Shown here: piece after piece, positions 2,373-29,415 of the stretch
Position numbering within the stretch: position 1 is the stretch's first letter
Layout: the number at the start of each line of letters is the position of its first letter
From: a virus
Virus record (IMG/VR): IMGVR_UViG_3300009158_000154
Location: 1 to 29,415 of that record
DNA length: 29,415 bases
Strand: one strand, 5' to 3'
Made by a program: the position numbers and the translations under genes
The notes under the pieces: generated by a model
The model's input: only the letters and a program-made list of their open reading frames with translations
Told to the model about the DNA's origin: nothing
Databases searched by the model: none

Positions 2373-3383
2373 ATGTTTGGTATAAACCCGTTTTCCGCTG
2401 CGCCGTTTGGAGCCACGGCTGCGGGCGGGCTATCTGGCGTTCAAGCCACCGGAACAACCGGTTCGGTATCGTCAGTTGATAAGACATTTGCGCTTACTGG
2501 AGTCAGTGCAGAAGCCCAAGTCAACTACGCATGGGGCACAGGGGCTTGGAGTGACTACGGTTGGGGTGGCGTATCCCCAAACCTCACTGTAAACGTCAGC
2601 TACGACACGCCAATCACAGGCGTAGCAGCCACTGGCGCTATTGATAGCGTCTCTGTAGGGGTTTCCATCACCCTGTCAGGGGTTCAGGTTTCCGGGGCAG
2701 TTGGCACGGTCATTTATAGCCACATAGTTTCCTTAACCGGAGTTCAATCCGATGGCGCGGTAGGCACAGTAACGTATGACCTGTCCAAAGCCATCTCTGG
2801 GGTTGCAGCTTCTGGTTTGGTTGGCACAGCCACCCCAAGCATTACTATCGCTCTCACGGGCAACCAAGCCGTTGGAGCAGTTGGAACCACCACCTACAGC
2901 CTATCTCAAGCCCTAACCGGGGTATCTGCAACTGGAACGGTAGATTCTGTTACCCCCAGCTTGACGCTGGCTTTGTCAGGGGTTGAAGCAGCCGGGACAG
3001 TTGGCAACATCGGGTTCAGTAAAGAGGCCGCGCTCACTGGTGTGCAGGCCGACGGTGGCGTAGGGACAGTGGTTCCCCCGCTCAGTATCAACACTGTGTC
3101 CGCAGAAGGTCAGGTTGGTAGCGTTGGCTTTGGTATCACTATGGAGCTATCCGGGGTTTCTGCCTCTGGGTATGCGGGCTCACTCCGGCTGCTGTGGGAG
3201 CTTATTGATGACAGCCAGACCGCAAATTGGCAGAATATTGACGACGCGCAGACCGCAGCTTGGGCAGCAATTGACAATGCGCAGAGTTCCAGTTTCAGCA
3301 ATACAAGCACCACTCAGACACCGGGCTGGGGTACAATTGACAACGCGCAGACAGACCAATGGGAATTGGTTGAAACGACATAG
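2373..3383 (+). CDS. Repeat-containing structural/fibre protein
   Basis: A 336-residue protein made almost entirely of repeats. After a short head (MFGINPFSAAPFGATAAGG) come about a dozen units of roughly 20 residues with consensus L-[TS]-G-V-x-A-x-G-x-V-G-[TS]-V (residues 20 to about 270). Repeat 2 carries an aromatic, glycine-rich insert near residues 52-68 (WGTGAWSDYGWGG). The C-terminus (275-336) switches to 11-residue units of form W-x-x-I-D-[DN]-[AS]-Q-T. The head and both repeat types are of a kind seen in phage virion proteins from aquatic phages. The regular beta pattern suggests a solenoid or fibre shaft (inference). A 29-base gap precedes it, holding a small CGGC/GCCG hairpin. The ribosome site is poor, so translation may depend on the upstream gene. 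Confidence 0.7.
   Translation: MFGINPFSAAPFGATAAGGLSGVQATGTTGSVSSVDKTFALTGVSAEAQVNYAWGTGAWSDYGWGGVSPNLTVNVSYDTPITGVAATGAIDSVSVGVSITLSGVQVSGAVGTVIYSHIVSLTGVQSDGAVGTVTYDLSKAISGVAASGLVGTATPSITIALTGNQAVGAVGTTTYSLSQALTGVSATGTVDSVTPSLTLALSGVEAAGTVGNIGFSKEAALTGVQADGGVGTVVPPLSINTVSAEGQVGSVGFGITMELSGVSASGYAGSLRLLWELIDDSQTANWQNIDDAQTAAWAAIDNAQSSSFSNTSTTQTPGWGTIDNAQTDQWELVETT
2430..3185 (+). repeat. Protein-level 60-base tandem repeats (20-residue units)
   Basis: Within the repeat protein, units starting [LI]-[TS]-G-V recur mostly every 20 codons. Examples begin ITGVAATGAIDSV, LSGVQVSGAVGTV, LTGVQSDGAVGTV, LTGVSATGTVDSV and LTGVQADGGVGTV. One unit is lengthened by an aromatic insert, and the late unit before VSAEGQVGSV has lost its LTG start. 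The nucleotide copies have drifted, so selection appears to act on the protein pattern. Confidence 0.8.
3195..3380 (+). repeat. 33-base tandem repeats encoding 11-residue W-x-x-I-D units
   Basis: Six units begin at 3195, 3228, 3261, 3294, 3327 and 3360, exactly 33 bases apart; the last is truncated by the stop codon. They start WELIDDSQTAN, WQNIDDAQTAA, WAAIDNAQSSS, FSNTSTTQTPG, WGTIDNAQTDQ and WELVETT. Trp (once Phe) at position 1, Ile at 4, Asp at 5 and Gln at 8 are the conserved residues. Confidence 0.85.
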
Positions 3384-3391
3384 GGTTATAA

Positions 3392-3736
3392 ATGGCACTT
3401 GTTTTAGCAGACCGCGTACAGGTAGCAGCTACAGCCAACACGACTGTCAGCTTCACGTTAGGCACGACCTCTACCGGCTACCAGAGCTTTGCTGTCATCG
3501 GTAACACTAACACTACGTACTACTCAGCCACGGATGGAACCAACTGGGAAGTTGGGATTGGAACTTATGCAACCTCTGGCCCAACCCTGACCCGCACCAC
3601 CATAATCTCGTCCAGTAACAGCAACGCCGCAGTCAGCACGTTCGGGGCAACCGTAACAGTGTTTGTGACCTACCCTGCCAATGTCTCTATTACAGAAGGC
3701 AAAGCAATCATGATGGCTATGGTGTTTGGAATATAA
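3392..3736 (+). CDS. Stand-alone tail-fibre module protein (MALVLADRV family)
   Basis: A 114-residue beta-rich protein. Its sequence pattern is one I recognise from aquatic phage structural proteins: an N-terminal MALVLADRVQ, then GYQSFAVIGNTNTTYY, GTNWEVGIGTY, LTRTTIISSSN and VFVTYPAN. In other phages this module is often the N-terminal part of a longer fibre or capsid-decoration protein; here it stands alone with only a short hydrophobic tail (AIMMAMVFGI). It lies eight bases after the repeat protein and before another small beta protein, in an adhesin island. The exact role, fibre base or decoration, cannot be decided from sequence. Confidence 0.7.
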   Translation: MALVLADRVQVAATANTTVSFTLGTTSTGYQSFAVIGNTNTTYYSATDGTNWEVGIGTYATSGPTLTRTTIISSSNSNAAVSTFGATVTVFVTYPANVSITEGKAIMMAMVFGI

Positions 3737-3745
3737 AGGAAACCT

Positions 3746-4117
3746 ATGGCAAACCCGAATATGGTCAACTTGTCCTCCATCCTTGGAGCGACTACCTACC
3801 TTGTGCCGACAACTACAACAGCTACTGCATGGACTGGATTAACGCCCGCAGCGGGAACCGTCAACAAGATTGACACCATGACGGCGACTAACGTCACAGC
3901 AACTGCTGCGACTATTACGGTATCCATCAACAGCGCAATTAGTGGTGGCGGTACGGCGTACCGTTTGACGTACCAAACCAGTGTTCCCGGAAATTCGTCT
4001 TTGGTAGTGGTGGACAAGAGCACCATGCTTTACGTAGGTGAGGCGCAATCCATTGTAGTGACATCTGGAACGACTAACTCTATTGAAATGGTTGCTACCT
4101 ACGAGGCCATCAGCTAA
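3746..4117 (+). CDS. Small beta-sandwich-like virion protein
   Basis: A 123-residue protein, rich in Thr, Ala and Val, with alternating strands typical of a small immunoglobulin-like or jelly-roll domain (for example MTATNVTATAATITVSI, then SSLVVVDKSTMLYVGEAQSI and a closing NSIEMVATYEAI). I know similar proteins from aquatic phages as unnamed structural proteins. An AGGAAA ribosome site is just upstream. The stop TAA shares its last base with the ATG of the glycine-rich adhesin (TAATG), so the two are translationally coupled. It may be a decoration or fibre-connecting protein (inference). Confidence 0.65.
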   Translation: MANPNMVNLSSILGATTYLVPTTTTATAWTGLTPAAGTVNKIDTMTATNVTATAATITVSINSAISGGGTAYRLTYQTSVPGNSSLVVVDKSTMLYVGEAQSIVVTSGTTNSIEMVATYEAIS

Positions 4118-5715
4118 TGAATCGTTATAAAGGTTCCATTCTGTCTGCAACGGCTGCGCCTACCAGCGGTTCCGCTGCGGCTGGGATATGGACGCAAACA
4201 GAAGCAATGCAAGCTAGGCAAGCGGGGACATGGCCTGGATACAATACACCTGATATTGAATATTTGGTGGTTGCAGGTGGCGGCGGCGGCGGTGTTTTTG
4301 GTGGCGGTGGAGGTGCAGGCGGGTATTTAACCTCAACAGGCTATTCTGTAACCCCAGGTTCCGCAATCACCATTACAGTTGGCGCTGCTGGCGCTGGTGG
4401 TATTTACAACTCTTCTACATCTGCAACTGCTGGTGGTAATAGTGTTATTGCTGGTGGAACTACCATAACAGCTTCTGGCGGCGGTATTGGAGGAAATGGA
4501 CGTTTTTCCCCAGGCGCTGGTGGTAATGGTGGTTCTGGCGGTGGCGGCGCAACAACTGGCGGTGTGGTGAATGCTGCTGGTTCAGCAAATGGGACTCCAT
4601 CAAGCCAAGGCAATGCTGGCGGCAGGGGCGGTAATGACTCTAGTGGAGGGCAAGTTAATTACCCAAGCGGTGGCGGTGGTGGTGCTGGGGGTGTTGGTCA
4701 ATATGGTTTACAAAATCAAAAGCCTGGATTTGGTGGTGTTGGTGTACTAACTAACTTTATCACCCCATTTGCTGGAACGGGAAACATTACTTCTGGTTCT
4801 ACAACATTAACAGTTACTGCCACAAGCGCAGGGGCTTGTGTACCAGGAACACAGGTTACTGGAACTGGCATTAGAACCGCACAATCTATAGCAATTACAA
4901 GCATAACAGCGGCGGCTAACGTAGTTACGGTTAACTATGCAACTCAAGGTTCAGCCCCATTCGCTGCGGGTATGGCAATTACGATTGCTGGGGTTACGGG
5001 TTCTGTAGTTTCAACTACAGGGTCTATAACAGCAAATACTCTAACCGTTTCATCTGGTACAAGTATTGCAATTGGGCAGCTTGTAACAGGAACAGGCGTA
5101 ACTGCTGGAACTTATATTACTGGTGGCAGTGCATTAAGTTGGACAGTAAACATATCTCAAACAGTAGCGTCTACCACACTTACTTTTAGCGCAAGCTGGA
5201 ACGGAACGTATCAAGTCGCGTCATCTAGCACTACTGCCACAACATTTTCCGCAAACACTACTGGAACTGCTACCGTCACTGGCGCGACTATTTCTAGCCT
5301 TGCGACATACATAGTTTCTGGTAGTGCAGGGTCTTTTGTTATGAGCGCCCCAGCAACGGCCACTACCACTGGCATTGCACTTACAAGTTCGGGCAACTAT
5401 TATGCTGGCGGTGGCGGTGGAGATGTGTTTACATCTGGGAATCCCATAGGTCAAGGCGGTGCAGGCGGCGGTGGTAATGGTGGTGTATCAGGCTCTGTTT
5501 CTGGAACTTCAGCCGCAGATGAAACAGGCGGTGGTGGTGGTGGTAGCGGACTTGCTGCGGGCGTTACTGGAGGCGCAGGCGGTAAAGGAATTGTTATTCT
5601 TAGGTATTCCATAGGATTTCCAGTAGCGGCATCTACTACTGGAAGTCCAACGGTCACAACAGACGCAACTTACCGGTACTACAAATTTACAGGCAACGGA
5701 ACCATTACGTTTTAA
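4117..5715 (+). CDS. Glycine-rich receptor-binding/adhesin protein with nested inserted domains
   Basis: A 532-residue protein. Residues about 45-215 and 427-532 form a glycine-rich domain: VVAGGGGGG, GGGGGAGGY, ITITVGAAGAGG and other poly-Gly stretches, ending with GKGIVILRY and a YRYYKFTGNGTITF strand. This is the pattern of phage tail-tip adhesins built from packed polyglycine helices, where hypervariable loops contact the receptor. The short N-terminus (SATAAPTSGSAAAGIWT) is typical of the family. Between the two glycine-rich parts, residues about 222-425 are Gly-poor, Thr/Ser-rich beta modules that appear split and nested within one another (see separate entry). The protein is probably the receptor-recognising element of the tail (family knowledge plus inference). 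Carbohydrate binding is possible for the inserted modules but not shown. Confidence 0.75.
   Translation: MNRYKGSILSATAAPTSGSAAAGIWTQTEAMQARQAGTWPGYNTPDIEYLVVAGGGGGGVFGGGGGAGGYLTSTGYSVTPGSAITITVGAAGAGGIYNSSTSATAGGNSVIAGGTTITASGGGIGGNGRFSPGAGGNGGSGGGGATTGGVVNAAGSANGTPSSQGNAGGRGGNDSSGGQVNYPSGGGGGAGGVGQYGLQNQKPGFGGVGVLTNFITPFAGTGNITSGSTTLTVTATSAGACVPGTQVTGTGIRTAQSIAITSITAAANVVTVNYATQGSAPFAAGMAITIAGVTGSVVSTTGSITANTLTVSSGTSIAIGQLVTGTGVTAGTYITGGSALSWTVNISQTVASTTLTFSASWNGTYQVASSSTTATTFSANTTGTATVTGATISSLATYIVSGSAGSFVMSAPATATTTGIALTSSGNYYAGGGGGDVFTSGNPIGQGGAGGGGNGGVSGSVSGTSAADETGGGGGGSGLAAGVTGGAGGKGIVILRYSIGFPVAASTTGSPTVTTDATYRYYKFTGNGTITF
4780..5391 (+). other. Nested ('Russian doll') beta-module insertions inside the glycine-rich adhesin
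   Basis: Residues 222-425 read as three modules placed one inside the other. Module A starts at 4780 (SGSTTLTV then VTGTGI, ending 4872) and resumes at 5299 (LATYIVSGSAGSF). Module B starts near 4873 (NVVTVNY, then MAITIAGVTG, ending 5004) and resumes at 5197 (WNGTYQVASSSTT). Module C is uninterrupted from 5005 to 5196 (TLTVSSGTSIAIGQLVTGTG, then GTYITGG and STTLTF). C resembles A put back together. The whole block interrupts the glycine-rich domain, which resumes with YYAGGGGG. The assignment rests on the split halves completing familiar phage fibre modules. Confidence 0.6.
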
Positions 5716-16557: not shown

Positions 16558-18809
16558 GCTATTCTCGCCGTCAACTTTATGCAATGGGTGAGCCCCTTGG
16601 CGACTCTGCAACACGCCGTAAAGCAGGTGGTGGCCTAGTTTTAGGTGATGGTGGAGGTGGGTCTTCTCCCGCTAGCACCACTGTAAGTGCTACTGACCTT
16701 CCAGATTGGGCCAAGGGCTACGCCAAGGACACGTTGGCCAATGCAGCTAACCTTACGGACATCAATAAGAATCCGTACAAGGCTTACGACCAACCTCGGA
16801 TTGCTGGGTTTTCTCCCATGCAGGAGCAGGCACAAACGGCAGCTTCAAACATGTCGGCTGGGCCAGCAGCTTTTGGCCAAGGTGTCAACGCATACATGTC
16901 CCCGTACATGCAGAATGTGGTGGACGTACAGAAGCAAGAGGCTGCTCGGCAATCGGGGATTATGGGTACGCAGCAGCAAGCGCAAGCTGCTCAGTCCGGT
17001 GCTTTTGGTGGTGGTCGAGATGCCATCATGCGGGCAGAACGTGAACGTAACCTTGGTCAGCAGATGAACCAAATTCAAGCGCAGGGCTCCCAAGCTGCGT
17101 ACGACCAAGCTGCAAATCAGTTCCGTCAAGGCATTACCCAAGACACGGCTATCAATCAGTTGCAAAACCAATACGGCGGTCAGCAGCAAGCGCAAGCACA
17201 ACGAGGTCTGGACCTTGGGTATCAAGACTTCTTGAACCAACAGAACTACCCCTACAAGCAGATTGGCTTTATGTCCGATTTGGTTCGAGGCTTGCCGTTG
17301 GGTCAGCAATCTACAGCATCTATGTATCAGGCTCCCCCGTCAACATTGCAGACCGTTGGCGCTTTGGGTATGGGCGCGTATGGGGCTAGTCAGCTTATGG
17401 GTAGGGCTGAAGGTGGTCAAGTGAGCAGCTACGCTGGCGGTGGTGAAGTCAATGCAATGAACGACCAGAACCAGATGGCCGACGCAGTGGACAAGCTCAC
17501 CGACGAGCAGCTACAGCAAATCATTCAAAACCCATCCAGCGCAGCCGAACTCCAAGCAGCGCAACTTGAACTAGCTACCCGTGCCTCTGAACGAGGTGGA
17601 CTTGCCGGTGCTTACAACATGGCCCAAGGCGGCGTGGTTGCTTTTGAAGACGGTGGGTTTGTACAAACCCCTAGTGGGTTAAACGTACTAGAAAGTGAAG
17701 TAGGTGGATACGGCGGTAACGCGGATGAAATTGAGTCAGAAGGAAACCAAAACGTATACGATGAAATCTTACAAGAGTTTTTGGGGCAAATGCGCGCAGG
17801 TAAAAGTCGCAAAGGTATAACGCTGCGCAATGACACCCAAATGGAAGCCGACACAATAGCTAGGCTTGGGCGGTTGCAAAATACACTTGGTGGGGACAAA
17901 ACCTACACCGATATCCAAAAGCAAATTTCCGATATGCGCGGAGAGAACGAAGGCTCACTGCGTGAAGGTAAAGGGTTAGCTGCGCTCCAAGCAGCAGGTG
18001 CAATGCTCCAAGGTAATGACGCCATAAGGGGTATTGGCGCTGCGGGTTCTGCGTTTGCTTCTTCCTACGCCCCTGCACTGGCTGCTAAACGTAAGGCAGA
18101 CCAATCCTTCACTGAGATGAACATTAACTTGGCCAAGGCTCAACGTGCAGAAAAAGCGGGCCTACTTAAAGAAGCTGATACGTACGAGCAAGCTGCCGAG
18201 AAGAACAAGATTGATGCGTACAAAGCGGAAACCGCAGCACGTAATATGGGCCTTGGGTCTTTGGCTCAAGCAGCTAGAGCGGCTAAACCTCAGTCGTTTA
18301 GACCTGTTGCGGCGGTTAAAGAATCCGATGCGGTTCAAGCACAAAAAGCTTTTGCAGCAGAAATAGCAAACCCGGAAGACCCAGAAGCAAAACGTATTGC
18401 CGCAGCTTGGAGAGAAAGTTTGGGCCTTACACGTCCAAGCCCAATCTCCGCCGGTATATCCGCAACAGCGATGGGTGAAAGAACTGCTGCTCAGATAGCC
18501 GCCGATGAAGAGAAGCAACGGAAAGAGATTGAGGAAAAGCAAAATGCGGCGCGGTTGCAAGTAGAGAAAGACGTTGCTGCCGAGTACACGCTATCAAAAC
18601 TTGGTATGGAACAAGAGTACCAAGAGGCTCTGACAAATGCGGCTAAAAAAGTTAAGGGGGCAAAAACTCCAGACCAAGTTCGCCGAGAAATTATTGCTAG
18701 GGAAGTAGAACGCCGTGCGGGTGCGCGTCCATCTGCTAGTGGTGGAACCGGTGGTGCTAAGGGTGGAACTAGACTAAAATTTGACGCGAACGGAAACCAA
18801 ATTCAGTGA
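16554..18809 (+). CDS. Large Gln/Ala-rich virion protein, probable internal/ejection protein
   Basis: A 751-residue protein. After a Gly-rich N-terminus comes a conserved region (about 43-270) with LPDWAKGYAKDTLANAANLT, PRIAGFSPMQEQAQTAASNM and YMSPYMQNVVDVQKQEAARQ, then long Gln/Ala-rich helices (GTQQQAQAAQSGAFGGGRD). This block is familiar from unnamed structural proteins of phages with short tails. Residues about 282-370 carry GG motifs (AEGGQVSSYAGGGEV; YNMAQGGVVAFEDGG) like those of the protein at 13895-16132. The C-terminal half is mostly charged helix, probably coiled coil (about 475-715). A role as an ejected internal protein is inferred from size, helix content and position. An AAGGAAG site lies just before the ATG, which overlaps the GNAT stop. 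Confidence 0.65.
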   Translation: MSYSRRQLYAMGEPLGDSATRRKAGGGLVLGDGGGGSSPASTTVSATDLPDWAKGYAKDTLANAANLTDINKNPYKAYDQPRIAGFSPMQEQAQTAASNMSAGPAAFGQGVNAYMSPYMQNVVDVQKQEAARQSGIMGTQQQAQAAQSGAFGGGRDAIMRAERERNLGQQMNQIQAQGSQAAYDQAANQFRQGITQDTAINQLQNQYGGQQQAQAQRGLDLGYQDFLNQQNYPYKQIGFMSDLVRGLPLGQQSTASMYQAPPSTLQTVGALGMGAYGASQLMGRAEGGQVSSYAGGGEVNAMNDQNQMADAVDKLTDEQLQQIIQNPSSAAELQAAQLELATRASERGGLAGAYNMAQGGVVAFEDGGFVQTPSGLNVLESEVGGYGGNADEIESEGNQNVYDEILQEFLGQMRAGKSRKGITLRNDTQMEADTIARLGRLQNTLGGDKTYTDIQKQISDMRGENEGSLREGKGLAALQAAGAMLQGNDAIRGIGAAGSAFASSYAPALAAKRKADQSFTEMNINLAKAQRAEKAGLLKEADTYEQAAEKNKIDAYKAETAARNMGLGSLAQAARAAKPQSFRPVAAVKESDAVQAQKAFAAEIANPEDPEAKRIAAAWRESLGLTRPSPISAGISATAMGERTAAQIAADEEKQRKEIEEKQNAARLQVEKDVAAEYTLSKLGMEQEYQEALTNAAKKVKGAKTPDQVRREIIAREVERRAGARPSASGGTGGAKGGTRLKFDANGNQIQ

Positions 18810-18816
18810 GGGCGTT

Positions 18817-21800
18817 ATGACGATTGAAGCCGAACTCGCTGATGGGCGCGTCTTAGAGTTTCCTGATGGAACAAGCCCTACAGTAATCCAAGGTGTAGTC
18901 AAAAGACTCATAAGCGGTGGAGCACCCACACCTGCTGCGGCCCCCGCTGCCACCTCAACCGCCGCAGACAACCTAGCCCGTGCCCAAGCTGCGCAAAACG
19001 AAGCATCAAAAGGGCCAGAGCAAATCTCTATCCCTCAAGCGGAGTTGGCTGCTGCGGAAAAAAATGCTGCTGCGCTCAGGAAAGAGCTAGCACGTAAGGG
19101 TGTAGATGCTGGTGCGCCTCCTGCTATTGGAAGTACCAAGGCTGGAGAATTCCTGCTTGCCCAAGGAGCCCAAGCGCAAGGCCAACAACCCGCCCCCGCC
19201 GCTGCGGTAGTACCCCCTGCACCACCTCCTGCTCTTGCGCCAGCCCAAGTTGCTCGTACTGTTGACGACCGGGTTCGGCGTACGCCGTCCTTGTATGACG
19301 TGCAATCCACAACATCTGAACCTGCTGGTACGGTAGCTGGAACTCAAACAGCCCTCAACATGGCTGGGGTTAGCCCACAGTACGTGTCCTCACTAGAGGC
19401 GCAGTTCAATCAGCTAGACCCCGCCAAAAGAATTGCTGCATTGCAACAAGCATTGGTAGAAAACCCAAGAAATACGGTTAAAGGCCGTGCAGTGCGCGCA
19501 GTGGCTGCGCGAAACAAAGCTTGGGGCAAAGTGACCGACCCGGCAACATCCTACATTTCTGGCGCTGCTCGAAAGCTAAGCTCTCGGGTAGAAGATGTCA
19601 CCCAAGAGTTGATTGGCCAAGGAGTACGTGCTGACATTGCTCCGGGCATTGCTGCGAACAGGATTGCGTTTGGGGCTGCTACGCAGCCTATGGCTGCTGT
19701 TGACCGCGATGTAGTTGGTGAGCAAGCTGCCGCCGCTGCGGAGCAACAAGCCAAAGAACTCAAAGATGCAGGGTTGGCTAAACGCGTTGAGGCTGGAGTT
19801 ATGTCGGAAGGCACAAAAAGCGTTGCGGGTGTGGGACAGTTTTTGGCGGACATTACCGGGGATAAAGAGTTTTCTAGAGAGCTAGCAAACACCCAACGGA
19901 TAGAGGGCGCTAGGACTGCTGCAATCCCCCAAGGAGAAGGCGTTTTTGATAGGTCGCTTCAAGGGGCAGCTACAAGCCTTGCGGCACAAGCACCTTTCTT
20001 GGTGTTAAGCGCGCTGACTGGTTCTTCCGCACCCGTGTTGGCGCAAGTGGGGCTTACTTCGTTTGGGAAATCCTACGGAGAAGGTAGGGCTGCGGGCCTT
20101 GACATCGCAAAATCTGCCACACGGGCAACAGCAATGACTGCGGCGGAAATAATTTTTGAACGCCTTGGTATGACCAAAGCCCTTGCGGGTTTAAAAGCAT
20201 TTGTAGCTAAAAACGGCACAGCCAGCATACCTAAGTACTTAGCAACGTCTGTAGCAACAGAGCTACCCCCTGAAATAGCCACCGCCATAACGCAGTACGG
20301 TATTGACGTGCTGCCTAGTGTGGGTTTGAACAAAAAACCTAGCCTTATTGACCTGTACCAACAAGTAGAAGAAACGCTACGGCAAACAGTGTTGCAAGCC
20401 GGAGCTACTGCTGGGATTACCGTTGCTGGGGTTAAAGGTGTTCAAGGCGCTAAGGCCACCCCACAAGCAATAGCTGAGGCAAGAGAACGACTCCGCAAAA
20501 CCTCCAACCAAATAGTCGGCATAGAGAAAACCAACGAGCTACTCGGCCCTCGTGAGGGTGCGTACGAGCGTCCGGGGGAAATAAGCCGAGCAAAGCTTAT
20601 GGCTGAAGCAAAACGGGTTCCTTTTGCCTCTACTTCAGGTGCCTTGAACGCACCCCCCGCAGAAAAAGCCGCCGCTGAACCCAAACTAGGAGACCTAGAA
20701 AACGTGGGCATGCGGGAGGAAGAAGAACCCGGACTAGGTAGTCTAGAAAACGTACGTGCGGAGGATGGCCCGCCGTTGTTTGCTCCCACAGCCGAAGACA
20801 CCGAAGCAAAAGTAAACGCCATTGCTGAACGACTGCGTTCACGGGGCATCCCCAGAGAGAATGCGTTGCGCATAGCGCAGAAGCAAATTGCAGAAGAAGC
20901 AGCGGCTGCGGCAGGACCAGCGGCTGTCCAACCACCAAACGAAATCCAATTAGAAAAAGGTCTTGCAGCACCCCAAGATATGTCTAAGCTATCTGCATGG
21001 CCTGACGCTTTGCTGGCCGAGACGCTCAAGATGCAAGAGGCACAAGAGGCACCTAACAAGCCGTTAGTCGAGGCGCTTCAAGCGGAACTACAACGCCGAG
21101 CGCAAACCCAAGGAGCCCAAAATGTTGCAGGAACTGAGCCCACTCCAAGTGGAGAGAGCGTTAGCGTGGCTGGCCAGCCCGGAGCAGAGACCCCCGGAGG
21201 ACTTGAAACACCTGCACGAGATGGAGTGGTTCCTACTGAGCCGGATGCTGGACTCCCTGCTACAGGAGAAGTATCTGAGCCCGCTGCATTAGAAGAACGC
21301 CCCAAGCTGAACATGTTCGGCTTGCCTATCGGGGTGAATTTTGCCGCCAAACCAGAAAAAACTACTGCCTCCGAATTAAAGGCGGGCGATTGGATTATTT
21401 CTGATGGGAAAGCAATGCAAGTGCGTTCCGTTTCCCCTAATGAAGATGGCACATTGCATATAGTTTTAGACCATTTACTTGGTACAACTCCTGTCGATGC
21501 AAAACCAACTGCATCTGTCCAAAGAAAAATCATCGAGCAAAAAACCGAAGAAGGAACCACTGATGGCACTGAAACCGTTGAAGCCAAGCAAGCAGAAGCG
21601 CAAGAACAAGAAGCACCCGCCGCCCCAGTAAAAGTCAGAAACACTGAACCCGTAGTAAATGAAAATGGCGCGTTTATCCCTGCAAAGGAAAAAGGAGGGG
21701 AACTAGAAACCACCGCGCATTTCAAGGTACTGGACGAAGACAACGATATATCAGACAACCTTGTCGGCGCTACCATGATAACGGGCATGGGAGCTACCAA

Positions 21801-24800
21801 AGAAGGGCAGGGCGAAGGGTCTAAGCTACTCAAGGCAATTACTGCTTGGGCTGATGCTAACGGTAAAAAATTGGTACTTGTACCTGCGGCGACTCCTAAA
21901 GGCGAACGCGGGCTTTCTCAAGAACAGCTAAAAGCATGGTACGTCCGAAACGGGTTTGAAGACCGCATCGACTACATGGTGCGGGAACCCGGTGGTAAAA
22001 AAGCTGAAGCCCCCGCAGCACCGAAGCCTCCCAAAGCAGCCAAGCCCGGCAAAGAAGTACACACGACTCCGCAGAACGCTGAGGGCAAGTGGAGCCACGC
22101 AATAAACGGTGAGGTGGTTAAAACCTACGACACCAAGACCCAAGCAATTGCTGCGATGCTGCTGAACAAGGCCCAAAAAACGGGCAATGAAGAACTGATT
22201 GCAAAGAGGCAAAAAATATTTGATGGGGCGATGAACCCTCAGCAACGAGGCCGACCACCCAAGCTCGTTGATACCCTTACCGAAGATACTGAAGAGGCTG
22301 AAACAGCGAGAGCAAAAGCCGCTGTGGAAAAAGCCAATGCCGACGCAAAGGCCAAAGCTGAAGCCGCTGACAAAGCCGCTGAGAAAAAACCCACCGCTGA
22401 GGAAAAATTTGCGGCAAGAGCCAAGGCCAACGTAGAAGCTAATCAAAAAGCTATAGCAGAGAAAGCCAAGGCCGATGCCGAAGCAAAAGCTAAAGCCGAC
22501 GCAAGGGCTGAAAGAGAAAAAGACGAGGAGCAAGAGCAAGCTATTCGGGAAAAAGCTGAAGCTGAGGTAGATGCTGGGCCTATTGGTGAGGCACTGCGTC
22601 GCATTGAAGACGGTGACCGGGTTGAGACCAAGGCACAACTACGCCCCTTCATGTTTAAGCTGGAGAAAAACGGCGTACTCGACGACATCAGTGACATCCA
22701 AGAAGCTTTGAGCGACCGTGAGCAGACTGCTGATGACGTGCTTGACATCATGCGTGACCAGCTTGAAACCGCTAGAGACGATGCGATAGACGAGCGCGTC
22801 GATGAGCTTACGGAAGAAGCGGAACAAGAAGCGGAACAAGCTACCGAAGAAAAGCAAAAAGACCCGTGGGAAGGGGTTAAACGCACCACAAGGGGCGACG
22901 TAGAAACCGTGCCTACTTCTTCGCTGGATGATGTTGGGCAGAGAAACAAAGTAGACACCAGCACGCCTGAATACGCAGCATTAAAAGCCAGCATTGAAAA
23001 AACAGGAATAGTTGACCCAATTACGCTTACCACTAATTCGTTGGGTAAGCCAGAAGTATTTGAAGGTAACCACAGGTTACAAGCCGCTAGGGAGCTTGGG
23101 CTTAAAGAAGTGCCCGTAGTCCTGCATTCAAAAATTAACCCGTCTGAATCGCGCCCAGTTTTAGGGACTAAACCAAGCGAAATCTTGGCCAAAACCAAAG
23201 CCCCTGCCGCTAAAGCAACCGAACCCAAACCCAACCTAACAGCCGAAGAAAAAGAACGGCTGGAGGAACTTGATGACATATACCGCAACGCTACCAACAA
23301 CCCAAACACTGAGGGTGGTAAAGCTGCGAGGAAGACGCTTGAGCGTGTAACCAAAGACACCGACGAGCCCAAGGTTGTGCGTGAGCGGGCAAAGGCAATG
23401 TTGGCGGGGGAGTACTCCGCGCCTGCTGACGACGAGTTCTTCATTCAAGCTGCGCAGGGTAAGAAAGACCTAGCGTTTAGCAAGTTCACTACTTCCAGTC
23501 AGACCCTGTCGCACATCATAAAGACTGGCACAGACTTCCAGAAGAGACTGGCCCGCCGACTGCGTAGCACTGTGCGCAACGTGAAGATGGTGGTGGTTGA
23601 GAAGGGGCAAGAATTACCAGCAAGCGTAGCTGCGGTTAAAGACAAGTGGAACAGAGCACTTGCCCTGTACAACACAAACGAAAAGGTTGTCTACACCAAG
23701 GGGGAATCCTATGGAAGAAACAACGGCCTGAACGCTGTTGTGCAGCTACACGAGCTATTCCACGGGGCTACGTCCCAGAAGATACGCACCGCTTTGGCCT
23801 ACATGAAGATGGGCCGTCATGTGGACTCCCAGATGGTCAAGGCTGTTGATGGGCTGGAAAAAATAATGAACGCCGCCGCTGTTGAACTAAACAAACAAAT
23901 TGAGGCAGGCACTGTAGACCCAGACGTACACAGCCTAGCTGTCTATGGTGAAGCGTTCACCAACCTCCATGAGTTTGTGTCTTACGGAAACACCGATGCT
24001 AAGCTGCAAGAGTTTCTTAAAGGTGTGAAAGGATTTGAGAAAGACGAAGGTCTGTTCTCGCCGTTTGTTGACGCCCTGCGCCGCTTGATTGGTGTAGCGA
24101 AAGAAGACGCTAATGCACTGTCTGACCTTGTCCAGCACACCGACCAACTCATAAGTTCACGTAGACCGGGCGGCTGGGGCTTCCCAGAAGTAGGGGTGCT
24201 TGCATCAGCTATACCAAGAACCCAAGAGGAAATGGATGCGGACTCTGATGCGGCTTGGAGCAAAGTAACTCGGTCCCAGCTTGGGCAACAGCGGGCTGCT
24301 GCACTTAGCAGCGTTATGGCCTTGCGTGACCCCCGTGTTATTTGGGCACGGCTTGGGGGTGTGTGGGACAAGCTAGACGGCCCAACACGTAAAGCCATTG
24401 CGCTAACCTTCGACCGCAACGGTATTGCCAACACTATAGGTAAGCATATCCCTGCACTGGTAGACATAGCCGACCGGTTACAAAAGATGGACGGTATGGC
24501 CGCTAGCCTGCGTGCCCAAGCAACGAAGCAGGCTGGAATGGTTGTGAACTTTGCCCGAAAAGACCGCAAGGCTATGAAGGTGCTCGACCGACTGATACCG
24601 GCTTCAACCCTTGTTAGGTACGACCCTTCAAACCCCCCAGCAAATGGGGTTCGGGACACAAGAACAGATACAGCTTATGCGTCTTTAGGTGCAGCAGGCC
24701 AACGTGTGTATCGTGAAATTCGGGACTACTTCGCAGACATGCATCGCGTGGCGCGGGACATCATGGAGGCCAATGTTGATGGGCTAGACCTGCCTTCGGA

Positions 24801-27162
24801 TACCAAGCAAAAGCTGATGGGTAGCATTCGGCTAGCGTTTGAAGAAGGGAAAATTGAACCGTACTTCCCACTTATGCGTTTTGGCGATTTTGTCTTTCGC
24901 ATCAAAGAGCGGGGCTCCGCAGAGTATGAATCTTTCAGGTTTGAAACCAAAGCAGAGCGTGACTTTGCAGCTAAAGCGTACGCCAAAGAACAAGGCGTCA
25001 CTCTGGACAACTTGATTGAAGACAACGAAGTAGACCTGTCCGAAGACGATGGCGGGAAAGAAGTGCGCGGTATCGTCGAGGGTAATAGCAAGCTGCTAAA
25101 GGAACTGTACGGGGCCATAGACTCTATGGACTTGTCTGACCCCAACGCCAAGGCGAAGCTGAAGGACAACATGTATCAGGTGTATTTGGACTTGATGCCT
25201 GAAGCAAGTGTGCGCAAACAGTTCATGCACCGTGAAGAAGTAACTGGCTTTGGTACCGACACGCTGCGAATGATTAACGCGCAGGGTATCAAGATTGCTA
25301 GCGCCCTGTCCAAGCTTCAGTACGGTAACGAAATACGCAACTTGTCTGAGCAAGCGCATCGGCAGCTTAAAGGGAAAGAACAGTACAAAGCCTTTGTTGG
25401 TGCGATGGATGCGATTGCTGATGAGGCACTGAGCCCTAAACCGCTTGGCCCTGTTGCTGAATTTTTTGACCCAGTAGCGCAGCAATGGACAAAGTTTACT
25501 TTCTTCCATAACCTAACAAGCCTATCGTCTGCCCTCATGCAGCCAGCGGACATCATGCTGACCGGTGCACCTGTACTAGTCGGCAATCACGGCCCTAAAG
25601 CTATGGTTGAGTTGACCAAAATGGCCAACGTGGTTAAACAGTTTGGTGTGTGGGAAACCCTGCCTGATGGGACTAAACGGTTCCGTGCACCAAGCATTGC
25701 GTATGCAACAGGACTGCCTCAAGTAGAGCTTGATGCGATTGCCGACATGGTCAACGAGTACGGTCTTAGCGCCGACACGCTTGCAAATGAAATTTTTGAC
25801 GCAGCTACAAAACCTGTAAACAAGGCCGACCCAAAAGCAATCGAGCTTGCAAAAGATGCGGGCAGACTGCTTGTGCTTGGTGGGTTGATGCACCACACAG
25901 AACGCCTTTCGCGTGAAGTTTTGGGCGCGGCTTCATTCCGCTTGTACTACGCAGAGATGGAGAAAGCTTCTCCCGGCAACCCAAGCAACTATGCCAACGC
26001 TGTACGGGCTGCTGTAGCCGAAGTCAATGAGGCGCTGGGTGACTATAGCCCCGGTAACCGCCCGCAAATCATGCGTGGCCCTATTGGAAAGCTAGCAAGC
26101 ACTTACAAGTTTTTCCCGCTCACACGTATCAAGCTGCTTGGGGGTAACTTCTTCAGGATGATTCCGTTCCTCAACAAGGAGGGAAAACTTGCCGCAGCTA
26201 CTAAGTTCTTTGGCATCTTGGGTACACATAGCGTACTCACTGGGGTTGTTGGCCTTCCCATGTACGGACTCATACAAGCTCTATGGGGCCAGTGGCAAAA
26301 GGATGAAGACGCACCACAAACCATGAAGGACCTAGACCACGACACATGGTGGCGTACTGAGTACCTGCGCAAAGAACTAGACGATAGCAAGTTGACTAAG
26401 TTCGTTAAGGACGTGGCCAAAAGCGGTTTGGCTAACTACGCTACAGGCATGGCTATCTCTGAACGGCTTGGTTTGAACGATATGGTGTTCCGTACCCCAG
26501 ACCCAGCCAAGAACTTGAACGAGGCTTTTGCAAACTACGCCGCTGCGTTTTTTGGTGCGCAGTTGACTCCAATCAGAGCAACACAAGACTCGTGGGATTA
26601 CTACTCTCAAGGTGAGTATCAAAAAGCTTTTGAAGCCCTCCCATTTATGCCTAAGTCCATAGGCGCATTGTCAGCAACGGAACGCATTTCCCGCGAAGGC
26701 GTAGAGACTAAACAAGGCGTACCAATTTTAGACAAGGGCGAGGCAACCACAAAAGAACTTATCGGGCAAGCTCTTGGCTTCCAGTCTGCGCGTGTTGCAG
26801 AGGCACGAAGGATTGCACATGCTACGGACATAGTAGAGCGGGGCATTAGCAGTGAGAAGCAAGCCATAGTAGGTAAAGCAGCCACCATGTTCTTGAAGGC
26901 TATCAACCCGAACAGAGACCCAGAAGACCGGCAACGCTTCTTGAACATGTACCTAGAGTCCATCCAAAAGATACCTAAGTTCAATGTGAAGCACCCCGAA
27001 CATGGCATTGACGGTAAAGAGATTGACGCCAAGATTGACGCCGAGTTAGAGAAGATTGCCGCTTCTAAGATGTTCGGTGGGGTAAAAATCAACGACAACA
27101 ATATCCGGTTGTTTATCCAAGCGGCTTTGGCATCTAGGGAAGCATTGAACAACCCCAAATAA
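18817..27162 (+). CDS. Giant polyvalent virion protein (2781 residues)
   Basis: Start is ATG 18817, with GAGG at 18808-18811, preferred over the in-frame TTG 18781 inside the previous gene. By eye the order is: 1-34, ELADGRVLEFPDGTSP motif; 36-160, Ala/Pro-rich linker; about 383-545, hydrophobic helices; about 848-905, small beta region (LKAGDWIISDGKAMQVRS); about 981-1060, GNAT-like (GQGEGSKLLKAI at 998-1009); 1157-1255, Ala/Glu/Lys coiled coil; about 1363-1438, ParB/sulfiredoxin-like with G-N-H-R at 1417-1420; about 1558-1780, metallopeptidase-like with H1645-E-L-F-H1649 and E1719; about 1782-2560, conserved helical region ending in a polyvalent-associated (possibly LPD38-type) block with hydrophobic segment 2462-2491; then a C-terminal helical tail. 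Such proteins are thought to enter the host with phage DNA and counter defences. Domain edges are approximate. Confidence 0.8.
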   Translation: MTIEAELADGRVLEFPDGTSPTVIQGVVKRLISGGAPTPAAAPAATSTAADNLARAQAAQNEASKGPEQISIPQAELAAAEKNAAALRKELARKGVDAGAPPAIGSTKAGEFLLAQGAQAQGQQPAPAAAVVPPAPPPALAPAQVARTVDDRVRRTPSLYDVQSTTSEPAGTVAGTQTALNMAGVSPQYVSSLEAQFNQLDPAKRIAALQQALVENPRNTVKGRAVRAVAARNKAWGKVTDPATSYISGAARKLSSRVEDVTQELIGQGVRADIAPGIAANRIAFGAATQPMAAVDRDVVGEQAAAAAEQQAKELKDAGLAKRVEAGVMSEGTKSVAGVGQFLADITGDKEFSRELANTQRIEGARTAAIPQGEGVFDRSLQGAATSLAAQAPFLVLSALTGSSAPVLAQVGLTSFGKSYGEGRAAGLDIAKSATRATAMTAAEIIFERLGMTKALAGLKAFVAKNGTASIPKYLATSVATELPPEIATAITQYGIDVLPSVGLNKKPSLIDLYQQVEETLRQTVLQAGATAGITVAGVKGVQGAKATPQAIAEARERLRKTSNQIVGIEKTNELLGPREGAYERPGEISRAKLMAEAKRVPFASTSGALNAPPAEKAAAEPKLGDLENVGMREEEEPGLGSLENVRAEDGPPLFAPTAEDTEAKVNAIAERLRSRGIPRENALRIAQKQIAEEAAAAAGPAAVQPPNEIQLEKGLAAPQDMSKLSAWPDALLAETLKMQEAQEAPNKPLVEALQAELQRRAQTQGAQNVAGTEPTPSGESVSVAGQPGAETPGGLETPARDGVVPTEPDAGLPATGEVSEPAALEERPKLNMFGLPIGVNFAAKPEKTTASELKAGDWIISDGKAMQVRSVSPNEDGTLHIVLDHLLGTTPVDAKPTASVQRKIIEQKTEEGTTDGTETVEAKQAEAQEQEAPAAPVKVRNTEPVVNENGAFIPAKEKGGELETTAHFKVLDEDNDISDNLVGATMITGMGATKEGQGEGSKLLKAITAWADANGKKLVLVPAATPKGERGLSQEQLKAWYVRNGFEDRIDYMVREPGGKKAEAPAAPKPPKAAKPGKEVHTTPQNAEGKWSHAINGEVVKTYDTKTQAIAAMLLNKAQKTGNEELIAKRQKIFDGAMNPQQRGRPPKLVDTLTEDTEEAETARAKAAVEKANADAKAKAEAADKAAEKKPTAEEKFAARAKANVEANQKAIAEKAKADAEAKAKADARAEREKDEEQEQAIREKAEAEVDAGPIGEALRRIEDGDRVETKAQLRPFMFKLEKNGVLDDISDIQEALSDREQTADDVLDIMRDQLETARDDAIDERVDELTEEAEQEAEQATEEKQKDPWEGVKRTTRGDVETVPTSSLDDVGQRNKVDTSTPEYAALKASIEKTGIVDPITLTTNSLGKPEVFEGNHRLQAARELGLKEVPVVLHSKINPSESRPVLGTKPSEILAKTKAPAAKATEPKPNLTAEEKERLEELDDIYRNATNNPNTEGGKAARKTLERVTKDTDEPKVVRERAKAMLAGEYSAPADDEFFIQAAQGKKDLAFSKFTTSSQTLSHIIKTGTDFQKRLARRLRSTVRNVKMVVVEKGQELPASVAAVKDKWNRALALYNTNEKVVYTKGESYGRNNGLNAVVQLHELFHGATSQKIRTALAYMKMGRHVDSQMVKAVDGLEKIMNAAAVELNKQIEAGTVDPDVHSLAVYGEAFTNLHEFVSYGNTDAKLQEFLKGVKGFEKDEGLFSPFVDALRRLIGVAKEDANALSDLVQHTDQLISSRRPGGWGFPEVGVLASAIPRTQEEMDADSDAAWSKVTRSQLGQQRAAALSSVMALRDPRVIWARLGGVWDKLDGPTRKAIALTFDRNGIANTIGKHIPALVDIADRLQKMDGMAASLRAQATKQAGMVVNFARKDRKAMKVLDRLIPASTLVRYDPSNPPANGVRDTRTDTAYASLGAAGQRVYREIRDYFADMHRVARDIMEANVDGLDLPSDTKQKLMGSIRLAFEEGKIEPYFPLMRFGDFVFRIKERGSAEYESFRFETKAERDFAAKAYAKEQGVTLDNLIEDNEVDLSEDDGGKEVRGIVEGNSKLLKELYGAIDSMDLSDPNAKAKLKDNMYQVYLDLMPEASVRKQFMHREEVTGFGTDTLRMINAQGIKIASALSKLQYGNEIRNLSEQAHRQLKGKEQYKAFVGAMDAIADEALSPKPLGPVAEFFDPVAQQWTKFTFFHNLTSLSSALMQPADIMLTGAPVLVGNHGPKAMVELTKMANVVKQFGVWETLPDGTKRFRAPSIAYATGLPQVELDAIADMVNEYGLSADTLANEIFDAATKPVNKADPKAIELAKDAGRLLVLGGLMHHTERLSREVLGAASFRLYYAEMEKASPGNPSNYANAVRAAVAEVNEALGDYSPGNRPQIMRGPIGKLASTYKFFPLTRIKLLGGNFFRMIPFLNKEGKLAAATKFFGILGTHSVLTGVVGLPMYGLIQALWGQWQKDEDAPQTMKDLDHDTWWRTEYLRKELDDSKLTKFVKDVAKSGLANYATGMAISERLGLNDMVFRTPDPAKNLNEAFANYAAAFFGAQLTPIRATQDSWDYYSQGEYQKAFEALPFMPKSIGALSATERISREGVETKQGVPILDKGEATTKELIGQALGFQSARVAEARRIAHATDIVERGISSEKQAIVGKAATMFLKAINPNRDPEDRQRFLNMYLESIQKIPKFNVKHPEHGIDGKEIDAKIDAELEKIAASKMFGGVKINDNNIRLFIQAALASREALNNPK

Positions 27163-27233: not shown

Positions 27234-27428
27234 TCAAGTTCTCCAAACCCGCAAGCCCTTCACCCCATCCATGATGACCACCTTGGTGATGGTGGTTATC
27301 TTTAGCCGTTTTGTAACTACAGCCAACGTAGCCCGCGCCGCCTTGTGGTCGATGCAGGGGATGAAGAATGAATAGCCCTTGCGGAACTTGGACCAGTCAA
27401 TCCTGTACGCTACTGTCTCGATTTTCAT
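27234..27428 (-). CDS. Small basic conserved phage protein (64 residues)
   Basis: The product begins MKIETVAYRIDWSKFRKGYS and contains FFIPCIDHKAARATL, a basic helix (VTKRLKITTI) and a KGLRVWRT end. The pattern 'W..F..G.SFF.PC.D' followed by 'G.RVWR' is one I have seen in small phage proteins of unknown function. The basic helix suggests nucleic-acid contact (inference). It begins 32 bases inside the 3' end of the leftward ATPase gene, implying co-transcription and translational coupling, and ends before the terminator hairpin. The ribosome site (TGGGCACAG) is weak. The rightward ORF in this interval has no phage-like features and is a shadow. Confidence 0.65.
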   Translation of the reverse strand: MKIETVAYRIDWSKFRKGYSFFIPCIDHKAARATLAVVTKRLKITTITKVVIMDGVKGLRVWRT

Positions 27429-29415
27429 CTGTGCCCAGTATGGCTTCTACCCGTAGGGTCTCGTCGGCAGAGGTGTCAAACTTCAAGACGCGCACAGCAG
27501 GGGACACAATCTTCATGCCCTTGGACATGCGCTTGTTGGTAGCCTCTAGGAAAATACCCAAGTCGGTCAGCTTGCGCAGTAGCTCCTTGTAGCCCGTCTG
27601 CTGCTTGACGCAAAAGACTTTGAACTGCTTGGCTGAGATGTAGAGGTGCTTGGTATCCGGTTCGTAGCGTATGAGCAACTCCCCTCGTGGCTCCAGAGTC
27701 GGCAGCGCCGACAGGTTACTTCGGGAATCGACTTCACCATTGACCACCAGCGTGTTGTAGATGTGCCCGTTAATGAACTCACCCAGCGTGGAGATGGGGG
27801 ACAGGCTAGGGGGCTTCACATCTATGCGCATCTCACCCAGCATGCCCTTCAACCAGCCGTACACGTTACCCATGTGGAAGTCGTGCAGTCCTAACTCCTT
27901 GGCAATCAAGCCACCGGCAATGTTGGATGCCGACTGCGCAGACCAAAAGCGTTCCCGCGAAGTGAACTGGACTTCCTTGTCGATGCGGGCCTGTACTTTG
28001 CGCACAAGGTCTTGGCAGTACTCAAGGTTGTTGACCAAGAAGCTGATGTAGATTTCCCCAGCGTGACCGTAGTTCTCGTTCAGTTGGTGGTCGAACATCT
28101 GTTTGCCGACAGCTACGCCGATTACATCGTTTGGCTCAATCTTGTACTCCAGCAGACGCACAGACTCACCGTCCGGTGTGTTCTTCAACTCACCCAGCTT
28201 TTCGTAGAAGCTGCAATTGGCTGAGGCCAAGGTCATGTTTTTCCATGAGGTGTTGTTCAAGCGCAGACCGTTGACGTTGCCCCGCATGCGGTTCTTGCCC
28301 CGCCCGTGGCTGATGCCATAGGCCAAGTCGGAGAACTCCGCGCTCGTCATGTTGGTAATCTCGTCGATGGTGTTAGGCAGGTTGTTCATCACCCCTAGCT
28401 GCTGCATCTTGGCGTTCAATGTGTCCTTCTCAATCGCCATCAGTTCTTTGGGTTGGCCATACACACTGTTGCACATACGCAAGATGGTGGACTTCCCTGA
28501 CCCTGCCATCTCATAGATGACGTTGATGATTGCCCCATCCAAGCCCGTGAACTTCATCAGCGGTGAACCGAACGCAGTCAAGGCAGCAAACGCATGCGGC
28601 TCCATCCCCGGCAGGGCGTACAGGTTGAACACTTCCTTCCACTTATCGAAGGAACCCTTGGCGTGAATCTTCTCGGCGAAGAACTCCGTTGCTTCTGACG
28701 GCGGGCTGTAGAACGTACCGTCCTTGGTAATTTCTTTGTCGCCCATGATGAACTTGCTATCGTTCTCTACCCAACCAAATTGTGTTCTCATAATGTCTGC
28801 TTTCTTTTCGTATTGCATGTTCTTAACAAAAGTCACCACGTAGACAGCTAGGTTCTCGTACTGCTTGTGGTGGGCCATGACTCCTTGCTGGGCCAATGCT
28901 TTGCGCAACTCGTCCTTGGACGATATAGCTGCGGTGGATGTGGAAAATTCTCTGATGCCGTCGTGTGGCAGGTGCAGCCTAAACAATATGACTTCACCCG
29001 CTTGAGGGTCGCGCATACGTTTAACCGCATAGAAATCGTGCTCATAGACCAGCGTAGGGTCTGCTTCTTCATCGTCGGCGCGTCTATAGACCCCGCCGTT
29101 TTTCCCTCGAAAAAACGGGAACGGATACTCAGGAATGTTTATGGTTACCTGCTTACCCGCTTCAACCTCAACAACCACTTCATTGTCTTCATCGTCGGCT
29201 TCCTCTATCTCTAGCCCCAACACAATCGGGGACTTAATCTTGCCTTTGTGCACACAGCCATCGCATCCACCGGGGTTTTGCTTCTCAAACGTAGTGCAGT
29301 GGTGTGGCCCACCTTTGGTCAGCAAGTGATACACCTTGGCTTCAACCTCGTCAGGGTCGTAGTCAGGATACTGGTCTGACATCTTCTTGGTCGCACTGTC
29401 TTTGTCTACGCAGAA
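27397..29415 (-). CDS. DUF927-type primase/helicase ATPase, C-terminal part (5' end outside the window)
   Basis: A leftward gene, probably the phage replicative helicase or primase-helicase. Numbering from ATG 29382 gives 661 residues, but the frame stays open to the edge (FCVDKDSATKK precedes that Met) with no ribosome site, so the true start lies outside. Visible parts: a Cys/His cluster (H27, H28, C29, C40, C43); a middle domain with FGWVENDSKFIMGDKEI; an ATPase core with Walker A MAGSGKST (292-299), KDTLNAKMQQLGVMNNLP, Walker B-like TIDEIT (D340, E341) and GRGKNRMRG, a likely arginine finger; and a winged-helix-like C-terminus (YKELLRKLTDLGIFLEATNK). These match DUF927 proteins, whose N-terminus often carries primase-polymerase and PriCT domains, expected beyond the window (inference). 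Confidence 0.82.
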   Translation of the reverse strand, partial: FCVDKDSATKKMSDQYPDYDPDEVEAKVYHLLTKGGPHHCTTFEKQNPGGCDGCVHKGKIKSPIVLGLEIEEADDEDNEVVVEVEAGKQVTINIPEYPFPFFRGKNGGVYRRADDEEADPTLVYEHDFYAVKRMRDPQAGEVILFRLHLPHDGIREFSTSTAAISSKDELRKALAQQGVMAHHKQYENLAVYVVTFVKNMQYEKKADIMRTQFGWVENDSKFIMGDKEITKDGTFYSPPSEATEFFAEKIHAKGSFDKWKEVFNLYALPGMEPHAFAALTAFGSPLMKFTGLDGAIINVIYEMAGSGKSTILRMCNSVYGQPKELMAIEKDTLNAKMQQLGVMNNLPNTIDEITNMTSAEFSDLAYGISHGRGKNRMRGNVNGLRLNNTSWKNMTLASANCSFYEKLGELKNTPDGESVRLLEYKIEPNDVIGVAVGKQMFDHQLNENYGHAGEIYISFLVNNLEYCQDLVRKVQARIDKEVQFTSRERFWSAQSASNIAGGLIAKELGLHDFHMGNVYGWLKGMLGEMRIDVKPPSLSPISTLGEFINGHIYNTLVVNGEVDSRSNLSALPTLEPRGELLIRYEPDTKHLYISAKQFKVFCVKQQTGYKELLRKLTDLGIFLEATNKRMSKGMKIVSPAVRVLKFDTSADETLRVEAILGTDENRDSSVQD

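Follow-up and report, generated by a model that had tools for sequence, protein, structure and literature searches.

Nested insertion of small related modules in a glycine-rich, adhesin-like phage protein

The window, by which we mean the whole stretch of 29,415 nucleotides analysed, comes from an uncultured phage (IMG/VR) and encodes a glycine-rich protein of 532 residues (Table 1), and the genes adjoining its open reading frame match phage tail and virion families. Residues 43-222 score 30 bits against Pfam PF21722 (Gly_rich_2), whose curated cut-off is 24.3, and this places the protein in that family. It may bind a host receptor. The gp38 adhesins of the T4-like phages S16 and PP01 are polyglycine II sandwiches whose hypervariable loops contact the receptor (PMC6851490, PMC12892980). 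By inspection, the window protein likewise alternates glycine-rich motifs with variable segments, and the insertion described here lies in a segment that varies among homologues. Unlike gp38, whose loops are short turns, the window protein has a loop of 206 residues and finds no sequence match in any PDB chain (phmmer, up to E 1, the solved gp38 included). A tblastn search of cultured phages with the whole protein and with the inserted region also returned no match, the low-complexity filter probably masking such sequences. Elsewhere in the window, positions 18781-27162 of the + strand hold an open frame of 2793 residues, which resembles ParB_N and LPD39 (large polyvalent protein) at scores slightly below the Pfam cut-offs. 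Positions 27397-29415 of the - strand encode a primase/helicase-like protein (phrog_25314, phrog_8841), whose nearest cultured relative is that of Pseudomonas phage Rollin, at 30% identity.

At the level of sequence, residues 220-425 of the protein consist of five segments in the order A1-B1-C-B2-A2. An earlier note on this DNA had proposed that residues 222-425 are a module A split by a module B, itself split by an intact module C, the whole set being inserted in the polyglycine domain. That reading holds at this level: it is borne out by tests on joined halves, by unbroken relatives and by homologues in which the site is empty. Every peptide quoted in its favour is present, in frame, in ORF 4117-5715, and the positions given were correct to within one to four codons (ATYIV begins at 5302, not 5305). 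Between VTGTGI and the start of B sit the residues RTAQ (4873-4884), which could be a linker or belong to the loop of A itself. A search for a DNA signature of insertion at the junctions found short direct repeats only, none of which marks them convincingly, and GC3 does not clearly separate the segments of the nest. A contig of the same phage, L003 (IMGVR_UViG_3300027733_000710), ends at the equivalent of window position 4885, one base past the RTAQ codons and thus at the A1/B1 junction; this may reflect differing continuations in that sample, or chance.

Table 1. Features of the glycine-rich protein and of its nest (positions are those of the window)
Feature	Position	Strand	Basis
Glycine-rich phage protein hosting the nest, putative receptor-binding adhesin, 532 aa	4117..5715	+	ORF; Pfam Gly_rich_2 E 6.7e-7; phrog_2295 E 1.2e-27
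Glycine-rich domain, part 1, up to the insertion loop (KPGFGGVGVLTNFITPFA)	4240..4773	+	Alignment with glycine-rich homologues
A1, first half of module A, aa 220-256, ending VTGTGI-RTAQ	4774..4884	+	58-61% identity to the first half of unbroken A in L272/L273/L260
B1, first half of module B, aa 257-295, ending AITIAGVTG	4885..5001	+	B-family profile, 29.3 bits alone; with B2 42.0 bits
C, intact module with short linkers, aa 296-360	5002..5196	+	C-family profile, 58.5 bits, E 4e-17
B2, second half of module B, aa 361-395, WNGTYQV...	5197..5301	+	With C excised, one B module across the cut, E 2.5e-9; joined test
A2, second half of module A, aa 396-425, ATYIVSGSAGSFVMSAPATATTTGIALTSS	5302..5391	+	67% identity over 27 aa to the second half of the unbroken module of L060
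Glycine-rich domain resumed (GNYYAGGGGG...) and C-terminal domain (TTGSPTV...YYKFTGNGTITF)	5392..5715	+	Alignment with glycine-rich homologues

Module A is split in the window and unbroken elsewhere. Joined, its halves match the unbroken module of locus L272 in a single alignment (46% identity over 72 residues, E 2e-15). A profile of unbroken A modules gives joined A 49.4 bits, against 26.4 and 27.6 for the halves alone, a score reached by none of 2000 shuffles of either half. A half-module scan scores window A around B at 25.5, the best of 203 null placements reaching 15.5. The broad C-family profile, taken by itself, gives joined A a low and non-specific score (20.6 bits, against 21.4 for B1 joined to A2); the case for a split A is therefore carried by the closer A-type relatives. 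Some seeds of the A profile (L060 and its relatives) had been found with joined A; that circularity does not touch L260, L272 and L273, to which the flanks had led. The search that led to L260 used the glycine-rich flanks, with A, B and C omitted from the query, and this locus has an unbroken A at the same site (PFTGTASVFSSNNTLTVTAVSDGIIDVGTQVTGTGIPANSYII...NTGVAITSTGRYYAGG), as is seen across L260-L263 with the same flanks. A further search added L272 and L273, again with an unbroken A at the site (VGTQVTGTGIPAGAYIV...GVAITSSGRYYAGG). Unrelated proteins, among them those of L060 and L150, likewise have matching unbroken modules, recovered with queries derived from A. The expectation that the A halves would be found joined elsewhere is thus confirmed both at the same site and in unrelated contexts.

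The evidence for module B is of the same kind. A profile was made from B modules that are uninterrupted, with the window left out; against it, joined B gives E 7e-12 (bit scores in Table 1; B2 alone, 14.8 bits), and none of 2000 shuffles does as well. The B family is unbroken in 278 confirmed phage loci, so its halves, too, occur joined as had been anticipated; a B query of bacterial genome assemblies yielded two loci only. The C family is intact in 423 confirmed loci, and C matches several unbroken A modules (E 8e-6 to 3e-4), in agreement with the view that it is an unbroken relative of A. Both inserted modules, B and C, are therefore met as intact units elsewhere.

B and the C/A family are likely to have a common origin, B probably being a distant relative. 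Comparison of the B and C profiles gives a probability of 1% in global alignment and 44% in local alignment (E 2e-4). In multiple alignments that mix relatives of A, B and C with the window, all relatives pile up on C, and the three modules align with each other. For the A/C family, as for the B family, there is no Pfam match above the cut-off and no credible sequence match in the PDB, where no solved relative was found; a match of the B profile to renin (E about 1) is attributed to chance.

Homologues of the glycine-rich protein preserve earlier stages at the insertion site. In the alignment, all five rows that lack a module have a short loop there (L260 at 203 and at 1159, L247, L265 and L259), two of them being L260's own tandem paralogues. 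Five tandem paralogous glycine-rich genes lie at 203-5232 in L260-L263, and one of these (3127-4278) was seen with module A. The site is thus found as an empty loop in some homologues, with A alone in L260, L272 and L273, where A's own loop is empty, and with A holding B holding C in the window. The earlier note held that the nest would record the order A, then B, then C. That A came first in the loop is supported by those homologues in which the site holds A and nothing else. Precedence of B over C is not recorded in this way, as B may have carried C.

Nests are also found in other phage proteins. An iterative excision test was applied to 1462 proteins from loci that A-, B- and C-based queries had brought in, so that the frequency of nests among them is not unbiased. 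The test first recognized 325 contiguous modules, distributed over 216 proteins; their excision revealed 13 modules spanning an excised one, and one level further there were 2 more. The 15 split modules lie in 12 phage proteins, which do not amount to 12 independent events since several are mutually related; random excisions of the same length gave 3 of 3230. C within C is found in L068, L063, L062, L111, L113 and L210, B within B in L184, and C within B, at another loop, in L105. Three nested levels are reached in L108 and L132. The homologues L132 and L111 differ by one shell, which is split in two pieces. The half-module scan also picked out L044, in which an A-like module has a B in the loop that holds B in the window, its joined A scoring 22.6 bits (0 of 1000 shuffles). 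The B-in-A arrangement of L062 and L063 is weak, as the second half is equalled or beaten by 9-23 of 1000 shuffles, and on shuffling of the second half the C-in-C arrangement of L073 is weakly supported as well. A number of long phage proteins (L073, L077-L079, L086, L088, L092-L094, L101, L106, L213 and L214) show a C between C-like halves (TTLYLTSTNANIKVGQ...[C]ITGTAYTFTISQ); we have moderate confidence that these are halves of one module split around C.

Several of these nests share a loop. The cultured cyanophages S-PM2, S-RSM4 and S-H9 have a virion structural protein (T4-like GC 863), different from the protein of the window, and the L132 protein is a homologue of it. The corresponding stretch of S-RSM4, AHGLEVGNEIAIAG-SAGTNV-NGSWVVARV, is a B-like module whose loop is empty, and the same holds for S-PM2, S-H9-1 and S-H9-2. 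Their uncultured relatives L111, L132 and L108 carry a nest in the matching B-like loop: this VxG/NG loop holds C[C[C]] in L132 and L108, and the nest of L111 sits in it too. It is the very loop of window B that holds C (IAGVTG-C-WNGTYQV). By alignment of the A/C and B profiles, its counterpart in A is the loop occupied by B (VTGTGI-B-TYIV). The VxG/NG loop is favoured and not exclusive, given that other nests (L105, L184 and the C-in-C cases) use other loops. A broader proposal is one that we find close to evenly balanced, the scales tipping slightly against it: the loop after the 'VxG' strand of these small related beta modules would be a general docking site, the matching loop of each newcomer would accept the next module, and host-recognition arms would grow inwards by shells that are reshuffled in natural populations.

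The following history very probably accounts for the window protein. A loop of the glycine-rich domain would have gained A, the A loop would have gained B, and the B loop would have gained C, or else a B already carrying C entered A, to give Gly-A1-B1-C-B2-A2-Gly. In this scheme, a beta-rich module A was inserted into a loop of a putative host-recognition domain, B into the A loop after 'VTGTG', and C into the matching B loop after 'IAGVTG', unless B and C came as one piece. A module whose ends are set close together could seat in a loop without disturbing the base, while its own loop could take the next module. Each split module would still fold as a unit with its ends lying close together, A1 presumably co-folding with A2 and B1 with B2. 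The nest would then probably be an arm projecting from the receptor-facing loops, altering reach or specificity. The insertions are likely to have arisen by recombination between phage genes with such modules in common.

The same nest could have had another history, in which B with C, or the whole A-B-C set, was acquired pre-assembled, so that nesting order is not the order of events. We regard this as a serious possibility, somewhat short of an even chance. The B-in-A unit is present in L044 also, and the difference by whole shells between the nests of L132 and L111 suggests that composites may move as units. On the other hand, the occurrence of A alone at this very site in three loci favours A first, and the fetched loci yielded no B[C] standing on its own with its VTG/NG loop occupied by C. 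A very unlikely alternative is that the modules are sequential and unsplit, and look nested through their richness in Thr, Ser, Gly and Ala. Cross-matches do occur with such biased composition, short halves and mutual resemblance of A, B and C, but the shuffle and random-excision controls argue against this explanation, as do the homologues with an unbroken A or an empty loop at the same position. It is just as improbable that the gene is a damaged one, in which recent insertions broke modules and have yet to be removed. A is indeed split in this phage and intact in relatives; however, the 532-residue frame is open from end to end and is identical in a second contig, L002, and several other phage proteins whose frames are intact have nests too. 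An assembly chimera, which the end of L003 exactly at the A1/B1 junction might suggest, is hardly credible, a single-assembly error being unlikely since L002 encodes the whole nest region at 100% identity.

Nested domain insertion is established for ndhH and for the Si3 region of cyanobacterial RNA polymerase rpoC2, where it reaches six levels (PMC13114784). The A1-B1-C-B2-A2 topology, in which an inserted domain hosts another, is the same in the window. The differences are that the window modules are small (about 65-75 residues), that A and C belong to one family with B a likely distant relative, and that the host is an adhesin-like phage protein. The domain mosaicism of phage receptor-binding proteins is likewise established (PMC10684548), while a limited search of the open-access literature found no nested insertion in a phage adhesin. 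What is new is that small phage modules of related sequence are inserted recursively, in one loop several times over, and that intermediates survive.

The nest also departs from a reported rule. According to a 2026 survey, inserted domains are consistently smaller than their hosts (PMC13114784), whereas here the insert B[C] comprises 139 residues and its host A 67. There is a practical consequence, in that domain searches which assume contiguous modules will miss or mis-order such nested architectures. In the usual description, host-recognition proteins of phages grow by end-to-end shuffling of modules; here the modules are nested instead. Because the homologues keep empty-loop, single-module and multi-level stages, the evolution of discontinuous domains can be traced through natural intermediates.
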